From: Prauserella cavernicola
GTDB taxonomy: Bacteria; Actinomycetota; Actinomycetes; Mycobacteriales; Pseudonocardiaceae
DNA length: 64,000 nucleotides
Assembly: GCF_016595675.1 (NCBI RefSeq)
Contig: NZ_JAENJH010000004.1
Location: 248,001 to 312,000 of the forward strand
Reading direction: 5' to 3'
Every line of letters begins with the position of its first letter. Position 1 is the first letter of the stretch. The position numbers and the translations under genes are program-made. The notes beneath the pieces were generated by a model that saw nothing but the letters and a program-made list of their open reading frames with translations, searched no databases and was not told where the DNA came from. Of this stretch, positions 55,841-58,795 are shown in pieces.

Positions 55841-57097
55841 TCAGTAGCCGAGGACCTTCCGCACCGCGTCGGCGGACGGGGGCACGGTGGCCTTCGGACC
55901 GATCTTGCCCTCGACGGCGTCGAGCGTCTTCAGACCGTCGCCGGTGATGAGCAGGACCGTCTCGGCGTCCGGGTCGAGCTTGCCAGCCTCGATGAGCTTC
56001 TTCGCGGTCGCCACGGTGACACCGCCGGCGGTCTCGGTGAAGATGCCCTCGGTGCGCGCCAGCAGACGGATGCCCTCGACGACCTCCTCGTCGGAGACGT
56101 CCTCGATCGCGCCGCCCGTGCGGTTGACGGTGTCGAGCACGTACGGACCGTCGGCAGGGTTGCCGATCGCGAGCGAGCGGGCGATGGTGTCGGGCTTCAC
56201 CGGCTGGACCACGTCGTGGCCGTTGCGGAAGGCGGTGGACACGGGGGAGCAGCCGGTGGCCTGGGCGCCGAAGATCTTGTACGGCGACTCGTCCACCAGG
56301 CCGAGCTGGCCCAGCTCGCGGAAGCCCTTGTCGACCTTGGTCAGCTGGGAGCCCGACGCGATCGGGACGACGATCTGCTCAGGCCGCCGCCAGCCGAGCT
56401 GCTCGGCGACTTCGAAGGCGAGGGTCTTGGAGCCCTCGGAGTAGTAGGGCCGCACGTTGACGTTCACGAACGCCCACGACTCGTGCTCGGAGGCGAGTTG
56501 GGTCGCGAGCCGGTTGACGTCGTCGTAGTTGCCGTCGACGGCGATCAGCGAGCCGTCGTAGACGGCCGTGGTGAGGATCTTGGCGCGCTCGAGGGAGGAG
56601 GGGATCAGCACGACCGACTGCCAGCCCGCCCTGGCGGCGGCAGCGGCGACGGCGTTGGCGAGGTTGCCCGTCGAGGGGCAGGCCAGCGTGTCGAAACCGA
56701 ACTCGCGGGCCGCGGCGAGCGCGACGGCGACCACGCGGTCCTTGAACGAGTGCGTCGGGTTGCCGGTGTCGTCCTTGACCCAGATGCGCTTGACCCCGAG
56801 GGCCTTCGCCAGCCGGTCGGCACGCACCAGCCTCGTACAGCCCGGCTCGGTGTTGGGGGTCTCCTCGACGTTGGAGGGGACCGGAAGCAGCTTCTTGTAG
56901 CGCCAGATGTTGCGCGGGCCGGACTCGATGTCCTCCCTGCGCACCTTGCCGAAGTCGTAGGCCACCTCGAGCGGCGAGAAGTCCTCGGGGGAGACGAACT
57001 CCGGAGCCAGCGGCTGGCGGTGGCCCTCTTCCTTGGACACGAGCTCGACGGCCGGACCGAGGTCAACGGACTTGGTGGTTTCGAGCGCTGCAGTCAT
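55841..57097 (-). CDS. thrC: Threonine synthase
   Basis: PLP enzyme of 418 aa that turns O-phosphohomoserine into threonine. The PLP Lys is in NPTHSFKDRVVAVAL; the phosphate-binding Gly loop is IASGSQLTKV, and CPSTGNLANAVAAAA is also conserved. The ATG at 57097 follows AAAGGA 7 nt upstream. Length and the N-terminal DFGKVRREDIESGPRNIWRY type of start fit the longer actinobacterial ThrC with its own N-terminal segment. The leader holds a SAM-I riboswitch, so expression responds to methionine/SAM supply, a competing branch of the aspartate family. Confidence 0.95.
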   Translation of the reverse strand: MTAALETTKSVDLGPAVELVSKEEGHRQPLAPEFVSPEDFSPLEVAYDFGKVRREDIESGPRNIWRYKKLLPVPSNVEETPNTEPGCTRLVRADRLAKALGVKRIWVKDDTGNPTHSFKDRVVAVALAAAREFGFDTLACPSTGNLANAVAAAAARAGWQSVVLIPSSLERAKILTTAVYDGSLIAVDGNYDDVNRLATQLASEHESWAFVNVNVRPYYSEGSKTLAFEVAEQLGWRRPEQIVVPIASGSQLTKVDKGFRELGQLGLVDESPYKIFGAQATGCSPVSTAFRNGHDVVQPVKPDTIARSLAIGNPADGPYVLDTVNRTGGAIEDVSDEEVVEGIRLLARTEGIFTETAGGVTVATAKKLIEAGKLDPDAETVLLITGDGLKTLDAVEGKIGPKATVPPSADAVRKVLGY

Positions 57098-57111
57098 CGC
57101 GAGGTCCTTTC

Positions 57112-57240
57112 CTCATCTGTCCCACTGACGCGGGTCGGAATTGGCACCGTGTTCGTCAGCTACCTCGCGGAATCGAGATGACAGGCTGACGCCGGTTGCC
57201 GGGGCTTCAACGGGCCGTTCCCTCTGCCCCTCTGGATGAG
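57112..57240 (-). promoter_or_regulatory. SAM-I (S-box) riboswitch in the thrC leader
   Basis: Read on the minus strand from 57240 the leader has all S-box marks. P1 is CTCATC (57240-57235) with GATGAG (57117-57112). AGAGGGGCAGAGGGAACGGC is followed by TTGAAGCCCCGGCAACC, with P2 GGGGC (57230-57226) and GCCCC (57205-57201). P3 is CGTCAGC (57191-57185) with GCTGACG (57160-57154). P4 carries GGTGCCAATTCC (57148-57137). The 3' strand of P1 ends directly before the AAAGGA ribosome-binding site of thrC, so control is probably at translation start. There is no separate terminator hairpin with a T run. Confidence 0.93.
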
Positions 57241-57356
57241 CGGTATTCGGTTGTCGGTCGGCGGAAATCCGCCTGACGTCGCTTCGAAGCGTACGTCATG
57301 AGGATCAGATCGTGCCATGGCTGTGCGGGTTGGGTCACCGTGGCAGGATCGTCGTC

Positions 57357-58337
57357 GTGACCGCGTCAGCCACCGCACCAGAGCCACTGCACCTCGTGCT
57401 CGGCGATGAGGAACTGCTCGTCGAGCGCGCGGTGCGCGCCGTGCTCGACTCCGCGCGGAAGGTCGACGCCACCGCCGAGCTGACCCGGGTGCGGGTGTCC
57501 GAACTCACAGCCCCGCAGCTCGCCGAGCTCGTCAGCCCCTCCCTGTTCAGCGAGGGGCGCGTGATCGTGCTGGAGAGCGCGCAGGACGTCTCGCAGGAGA
57601 TCTCCGACGCGGTCATGTCCTACGTGGCCATGCCCGCGGACGGCATCGCGCTCGTGGTGGTCCACACCGGCGGCGGACGCAGCAAGGCGGCCAAGGCTCT
57701 GCCCGCGACGCTGAAGAAGGCTGGCGCCACCGTCACCGAGTGCGACAAGATCACCAAGCCCGCCGAGCGCGAAGCGTTCGTGCGCAACGAGGTTCGCACC
57801 GCGGGTGGCCGGATCGACGCGGCAGGCGTGGTCGCGCTCATCGACTCCGTGGGTTCCGATCTGCGGGAGCTCTCGGCCGCCGCGGCGCAGCTCGTGGCCG
57901 ACTCGGGCGGCAAGGTCGACGAGGACGCCGTGCGCCGCTACCACCGCGGCCGCGCTGACGTCACCGGCTTCATGGTCGCCGAGAAGGCCGTGGCGGGAGA
58001 CCGGGCCGCCGCGCTCGAATCGGTGCGCTGGTCCCAGCAGATCGGTGTGCCACATGTGCTGGTGGCCGACGCGCTGGCCGATGCGATCCGCACGATCGCC
58101 CGGGTGTCGGCGGCGGGCCGGGGCAACCCGAACCAGATGGCCGGCGAGCTCGGCATGCCGCCGTGGAAGATCCGCAAGGCGCAGGGGCAGTCGCGTGGCT
58201 GGAACGGAACCTCGCTGGCGGAGGCCATGCGCATCGTCGCCAGGGTCAACGCCGAGGTGAAGGGCGCGGCGGCCGATCCGGACTACGCGATCGAACGGGC
58301 CGTGCTCGATCTCATCGCGGCCAAGGAACGCCGCTGA
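57357..58337 (+). CDS. holA: DNA polymerase III subunit delta
   Basis: A 326-aa clamp-loader subunit that opens the beta clamp. It begins with LHLVLGDEELLVERAVRAVL, has the AAA-like domain I with VSPSLFSEGRVIVLESAQ, then GVVALIDSVGSDLRELSAAA and the C-terminal helical collar domain (AALESVRWSQQIGVPHVLVA, MAGELGMPPWKIRKAQ). GTG 57357 lacks a ribosome-binding site, while an upstream AT-poor CAGGAT may act as -10. Located behind comEC as in many bacteria (Rv2413c in M. tuberculosis). Confidence 0.94.
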   Translation: MTASATAPEPLHLVLGDEELLVERAVRAVLDSARKVDATAELTRVRVSELTAPQLAELVSPSLFSEGRVIVLESAQDVSQEISDAVMSYVAMPADGIALVVVHTGGGRSKAAKALPATLKKAGATVTECDKITKPAEREAFVRNEVRTAGGRIDAAGVVALIDSVGSDLRELSAAAAQLVADSGGKVDEDAVRRYHRGRADVTGFMVAEKAVAGDRAAALESVRWSQQIGVPHVLVADALADAIRTIARVSAAGRGNPNQMAGELGMPPWKIRKAQGQSRGWNGTSLAEAMRIVARVNAEVKGAAADPDYAIERAVLDLIAAKERR

Positions 58338-58795
58338 CCCCGAACGCGTGGTCGCGACGGCTCCGTTCGCGCCGCCAGCCGCGCATCGGCGTGGACCGGC
58401 GGCCGACCAGCTGACGGTCTGACGGACCGAGTCGGACTGGTCAACGAGCGGACTGACGGACCAAGTCTGACCGGCCAATTGACGGACCGAGGGACCAAGT
58501 CGGACCGACCAACACTCGGTCCGGCGGACCGAGTCGGACCGACCGATGGACCGTCGGGCCGACCAACCGAGCCAACCGATCAACTGACGGACCGACTCTG
58601 ACTCGGCACCGACCCGGACCTGCACGACGCGGACCCGGTACGACGCGGACCCGGCGGGACGCGGATCGACGCGATCCGGGCCCGCGCGACGAGGACCGGC
58701 ACGACCCGGGCCGACACGATCCGGACCGACGCGATCCGGGCCGACACGACCCCTGACACGACCCGGACCCAACTCCTGCACGATCCCTGACACGA
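58338..58795. repeat. Field of degenerate short repeats between holA and rpsT
   Basis: No gene is supported in this 458-bp gap. From about 58410 to 58610 a unit of roughly 26 bp around TGACGGACCGAGTCGGAC recurs with changes, partly in opposite orientation (ACTCGGTCC at about 58515). From about 58611 to 58790 a 15-bp unit close to GATCCGGGCCGACAC / GACGCGGACCCGGTAC repeats some ten times with substitutions. Open frames cross it on the minus strand with Gly-Pro-Asp-Arg-Val type repeats, but have no start signals and no known product. It looks like decayed tandem repeats, able to form many alternative hairpins. Confidence 0.7.

Follow-up and report, generated by a model that had tools for sequence, protein, structure and literature searches.

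The window examined here, 64,000 nucleotides of Prauserella cavernicola DNA, contains an S-box leader in front of a gene of the type annotated "threonine synthase", and the locus raises the question of what this gene makes and in which direction SAM acts on it. The sequence-only reading had taken the gene for the cell's threonine synthase, found an ordinary OFF switch counter-intuitive there and favoured an ON switch, with the enzyme made when SAM is plentiful. The apparent paradox of an S-box on a threonine synthase stems from the gene's name, and it is removed once that name is questioned.

Scanning of the whole window with cmscan gave a single Rfam match at the gathering threshold: RF00162 (SAM), on the minus strand at 57242-57110, with 75.9 bits against a cut-off of 44.4, E 5.2e-16 and the model covered completely (1-108). 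This covariance search confirms the full S-box aptamer described earlier, with coordinates agreeing within 2 bases, and places it in RF00162; the aptamer presumably binds SAM. Its 3' edge lies 12 bases 5' of the ATG of a 418-aa gene, and, as had been read before, P1 abuts the ribosome-binding site, GAUGAG being directly followed by GAAAGGA, which makes a good Shine-Dalgarno sequence. The parts of the locus are the following:

57110..57242, minus strand: complete SAM-I (S-box) aptamer (RF00162).
57235..57240, minus strand: 5' strand of P1, CUCAUC (Rfam alignment).
57112..57117, minus strand: 3' strand of P1, GAUGAG, used by both P1 and the alternative hairpin (Rfam alignment and platform analysis).
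57105..57111, minus strand: Shine-Dalgarno sequence GAAAGGA, immediately 3' of P1 and 7 bases 5' of the ATG (sequence).
57099..57117, minus strand: alternative hairpin over the ribosome-binding site, which excludes P1, has an energy of -5.3 kcal/mol and carries AAAGGA, the core of the Shine-Dalgarno sequence, as part of its loop (platform pairing and fold).
55841..57097, minus strand: metM-like gene for a 418-aa PLP enzyme of a type that goes under the annotation "threonine synthase" (PF00291, TIGR00260, tree and synteny).

Pairing of GAAAGGA with an assumed 16S tail sequence was calculated at -8.7 kcal/mol. A simple scan of 56900-57450 found no sigma-70-type promoter, and its only terminator-like site was on the plus strand, at 57012; this bears out the earlier remark that no terminator hairpin is seen for the gene. 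Since the scan showed no minus-strand terminator in this region and the gap between P1 and the start codon is just 14 bases, control by transcription termination was rejected.

The 418-aa product scores 284.8 bits with the NCBIfam model TIGR00260 ("threonine synthase"), whose cut-off is 167.1, and the solved structures nearest to it by sequence are threonine synthases. Both observations would suit a rival reading, in which an OFF switch governs a second threonine synthase, perhaps one which also acts as a threonine deaminase feeding isoleucine. PMC12172450 describes a Microcystis MetM homologue, also located beside a metO-like gene, which was active in vitro both as a threonine synthase and as a deaminase and was not found to act fully as MetM in threonine-treated cells. 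TIGR00260, however, does not separate MetM-like proteins from ThrC, as it is passed both by the window protein and by the canonical ThrC encoded elsewhere in the same genome. That thrC (359 aa) lies in the gene order lysA-hom-thrC-thrB-rho, where thrC was named by profile and lysA, hom, thrB and rho by our own reading of the translations. The two proteins share 32% identity. The window gene stands alone, outside any hom-thrC-thrB operon, with a divergent holA on one side and a convergent short-chain dehydrogenase gene downstream. Its earlier identification as the cell's threonine synthase is therefore not supported. At 58350-58790 of the window, between holA and rpsT, lies a stretch of degenerate repeats in which GACCGA/GACCGG is frequent.

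In a 39-protein tree with one CysM as outgroup, seven ThrC form a separate branch (support 99/98), far from the window protein. The latter falls into a group of 18 together with the sampled metO-linked genes, with a support of 89/90, short of the 95/80 that the tool sets as its mark. The best 80 loci kept from named genomes range from Prauserella and Amycolatopsis to Kribbella and Actinomadura. In all of these 80 loci, CGGCAACC, the core string of the S-box, is located no more than 450 bases upstream. An Rfam check of 20 loci, 18 with the metM-like gene and two before metB or metX, gave RF00162 in every one. A metO-like carrier gene comes next downstream in 26 of the best 80; these make up 26 of the last 28 loci among them (L164-L191), where no Pseudonocardiaceae genus appears in the titles. 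The plasmid search (E limit 1e-40) returned no Streptomyces copy and, among Actinomycetota, only Nonomuraea (one of 16 records), in which SAM-I is located upstream and a metO-like gene alongside.

The window gene has no metO at its side. Among 72 loci of the order (G188 counted twice), an adjacent metO was found in one and was absent from 71, the search covering at most some 2 kb of downstream sequence, and 219 bases for one of the loci. The protein also lacks the N-terminal CxxC-CxxC motif of its MetM relatives, which is present in 97 of 144 proteins and absent from 47 (26 from named loci within L112-L155, the other 21 from family f1). It is a threonine-synthase-like PLP protein distinct from ThrC, as TIGR00260, the separate clade and the other thrC indicate, and it is preceded by a SAM riboswitch. 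We refer to the gene as metM-like, and not as a proven metM, because metO is not adjacent, although such adjacency is a trait of gene order and is dispensable for activity. Most likely, the name "threonine synthase" is a misnomer and the gene codes for a homocysteine synthase using O-phosphohomoserine.

The distribution of the gene was followed across 200 genomes of the order, 148 of which contain it (E up to 1e-60). SAM-I is present in 148 of 148 genomes with the gene and in 11 of 52 without it, and it is directly upstream on the same strand in at least 137 of the 148 among the matches listed; in two gene-bearing genomes (G005 and G165) the listed SAM-I and the gene are on different contigs. 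Canonical ThrC (E 1e-90) accompanies the gene in 141 of the 148 genomes, the seven exceptions being assemblies of 170 to 670 contigs. A CysO/MetO-like carrier (E 1e-9) was found in 145 of 148 genomes with the gene and 22 of 52 without it, while metX-like genes (E 1e-50, with no match at the curated cut-off in any of the 200 genomes) are rarer in its presence (66 of 148 against 41 of 52); as all these genomes are related and belong to a single order, Fisher values for the co-occurrence overstate independence. Within one genus, the carrier is present in nine of nine genomes with the gene and in none of eight without it.

Taken together, the other thrC in nearly all gene-bearing genomes, the linkage to sulfur-carrier genes in relatives, the tie to CysO-like carriers and the inverse tie to metX-like genes speak against a second threonine synthase, which we regard as a rather improbable function of the window gene. 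The same data suggest that many "second thrC" genes of Actinomycetota may be methionine genes, and that the riboswitch is a handy marker by which MetM-like genes can be told apart from those for ThrC, a distinction that the NCBIfam model fails to draw.

The 11 genomes that have a SAM-I but are counted as lacking the gene carry 17 SAM-I matches. One of them, G124, has a partial copy of the gene at a contig end behind its SAM-I. Besides this match, seven loci from six genomes were examined, G018, G021, G050 and G160 being left out: five SAM-I stand before a metB-type gene, one before metX-metB and one before an ORF of no assigned kind. Since SAM-I precedes the metM-like gene and, where that gene is absent, metB or metX-metB in six of the seven loci examined, the leader looks like a shared regulatory slot, which tends to serve whichever homocysteine-pathway enzyme a genome uses.

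Other matches to SAM riboswitch families were encountered as well. Two SAM-I are present in 28 of 29 genomes of the family, and G188 has six. The second SAM-I of the P. cavernicola genome (G000:C33:255446-255535; L030:2447-2536) is located after a ksgA-like gene and before a lone gene for a MetN-like ABC ATPase (TIGR02314, 181.8 bits, under the cut-off), an arrangement repeated in G156 (L110). A single SAM-IV was found (G000:C11:620699-620810; L192:1501-1612; 110.9 bits); it heads a same-strand stretch encoding a SufS/cysteine-desulfurase-like protein (TIGR01979, 242.3 bits, under the cut-off). In G108, which lacks metM, a SAM-I (L104:373-480) precedes a 252-aa ORF with no NCBIfam match, which we take by eye to be isochorismatase-like.

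MetM would require a sulfur donor, and four ThiS-family proteins are encoded in the genome. We read them as CysO, ThiS (by thiO/thiG), MoaD (by moaA) and one carrier of no assigned kind, the neighbours being named by our own reading of the translations. The first of them is the following:

C33:605036-605311: CysO-like carrier gene, beside mec-like and cysM-like genes (ThiS-family match and neighbours).

The genome thus holds a CysO/MetO-like carrier, and CysO is likely to be the carrier partner of the window's MetM-like protein. A gene for a MoaD/ThiS-like carrier ending in GG is located at G000:C22:about 1281790 (L013:1462-1734), right behind that of a 360-aa protein which by eye resembles a BNR-repeat or sialidase-type beta-propeller. 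A metX-like gene (428 bits, below the curated 500), adjoined by a PF01053 (metY-type) gene, and one more PF01053 gene are present in the genome as well, so MetM would not be the sole route to methionine.

For a methionine-forming gene, OFF control is ordinary, and the objection that an OFF switch would be counter-intuitive falls together with the threonine synthase identity. The ON reading likewise loses its metabolic motive, and its structural side had to be considered separately. Leaders were collected from the named loci, eight of 80 being dropped as the script found no start codon, and from the order; 14 of the remaining 144 loci did not fit the P1 pattern, and removal of duplicates left 114 unique leaders. 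P1 is 6 bp long (CUCAUC/GAUGAG) and unextended in 111 of these 114 leaders fitting the search pattern, an invariance which is partly by construction because the 14 misfitting loci were left out. The distance from the end of P1 to the start codon has a median of 14 bases and is 13-15 bases in 79 of the 114.

A riboswitch that has decayed and is merely carried by descent could also be imagined, as the overall fold of the window leader is no more stable than that of its shuffles (z -0.04). This measure is uninformative, whereas the completeness of the aptamer, its score and the largely constant position of P1 make non-functionality extremely unlikely.

The alternative hairpin is conserved. Of 71 distinct platforms, 65 can pair three or more bases of GAUGAG with sequence further downstream, compared with 28.2 expected from shuffles; the median energy of the platform hairpin is -5.3 kcal/mol, and 27 of the 71 reach -6 kcal/mol or lower. 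As this hairpin covers the ribosome-binding site and is exclusive with P1, it would allow the ON switch proposed earlier: SAM-bound P1 would release the pre-start region from the hairpin, and translation would proceed when SAM is plentiful. Several folding results lean the same way. In the ligand-free window leader the alternative hairpin has a probability of 0.63 and P1 of 0.36, and among the 114 ligand-free leaders the 3' GAG is paired downstream with a probability above 0.5 in 70, while P1 exceeds this value in 15. The 5' strand of P1 pairs with the GAUG at the window's start codon (probability 0.52), covering it, so that the SAM-free state would be the closed one; such pairing exceeds 0.5 in only 22 of the 114 leaders. 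Opening of positions -14 to +4 in the window costs 5.6 kcal/mol with P1 and 8.3 without it.

The predicted sign, however, varies with the length of single-stranded RNA that the ribosome is assumed to require 5' of the Shine-Dalgarno sequence. Folding energies with no clearance there score 68 of the 114 leaders as ON, 33 as OFF and 13 within 1 kcal. Three bases of clearance turn this into 67 OFF, 18 ON and 29 within 1 kcal, and six bases into 93 OFF, four ON and 17 within 1 kcal. The window leader itself moves from ON by 3.2 kcal to OFF by 1.9 and then OFF by 4.5. The scoring forbade only P1 pairs; a variant with the 5' strand of P1 held open gives similar results. Energies alone would thus not fix the sign: they allow the ON switch, the window included, if no clearance is demanded. 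Other considerations oppose it. P1 takes part of the Shine-Dalgarno sequence and weakens it by more than 1 kcal in 54 of the 114 leaders, and its formation leaves 29 without a Shine-Dalgarno better than -4 kcal, although neither applies to the window. A methionine enzyme induced by SAM would amount to positive feedback, and in relatives without the gene SAM-I precedes metB or metX in six of the seven loci examined. We therefore hold the ON switch to be unlikely, if somewhat less so than a second threonine synthase.

An OFF switch on methionine synthesis is most likely. We prefer this sign because of the probable role of the gene, the P1 strand taking part of the Shine-Dalgarno sequence in those 54 leaders and the precedent of a Xanthomonas SAM-I OFF switch with a short Shine-Dalgarno hairpin. 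When SAM is high, SAM-bound P1 would stand right against the Shine-Dalgarno sequence, or over it in part of the relatives, and hinder ribosome loading. When SAM is low, the 3' strand of P1 would pair with bases 5' of the start codon into a small hairpin with the Shine-Dalgarno core in its loop, which the ribosome would need to melt for expression. The enzyme would then draw on the threonine branch for O-phosphohomoserine and form homocysteine for methionine, a thiocarboxylated carrier protein supplying the sulfur. MetM reportedly uses O-phosphohomoserine and thiocarboxylated MetO (Hasebe et al. 2024, Appl Environ Microbiol).

Overall, we consider it quite probable that the gene is of the metM type and that this SAM-I riboswitch acts on its translation by ordinary OFF logic. 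More tentatively, and with rather more doubt than conviction, we speculate that MetM of Pseudonocardiaceae has lost its own MetO and takes sulfur from CysO, one carrier then serving both cysteine and methionine, while its gene is under translational control by a minimal SAM-I platform, about 14 bases long, where the 3' strand of P1 is traded between the aptamer and a hairpin with the Shine-Dalgarno core in its loop.

The compact platform is an interesting feature of the system. PMC12172450 credits Hasebe et al. with the discovery of MetM as a novel homocysteine synthase of Streptomyces and places a SAM riboswitch upstream of S. albulus metM; our literature search found no other report in which metM is controlled by a SAM riboswitch. 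According to a survey of Actinobacteria from 2005, methionine operons are not preceded by conserved RNA structures (PMC1262725). PMC2267785 lists SCO4293 (thrC) and SCO4294 of S. coelicolor with those genes of sulfate assimilation that share an expression profile; the two presumably represent metM-metO of that species. The window gene shares with S. albulus metM-metO a threonine-synthase-like PLP enzyme downstream of a SAM riboswitch, and some relatives, including Nonomuraea, share the adjoining metO-like gene as well. It differs in having no metO alongside, in a genome with metX-like and PF01053 genes, and differs from MetM relatives in the missing CxxC-CxxC motif. With canonical ThrC of hom-thrC-thrB it has in common the TIGR00260 family and, by inference, the substrate, but it belongs to a separate clade, whereas ThrC is encoded in its own operon. 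Compared with RF00162 in general, the aptamer is equally complete, while here no terminator is seen, P1 sits directly on the ribosome-binding site and a small hairpin competes with it. A parallel in mechanism is the met operon of Xanthomonas campestris, for which PMC7270179 describes a translational SAM-I OFF switch, with repression by SAM shown and a short hairpin at the Shine-Dalgarno sequence in the SAM-free state; there, hairpins P5-P7 hold the Shine-Dalgarno sequence and the AUG, whereas here the platform between P1 and the start codon spans just 14 bases.
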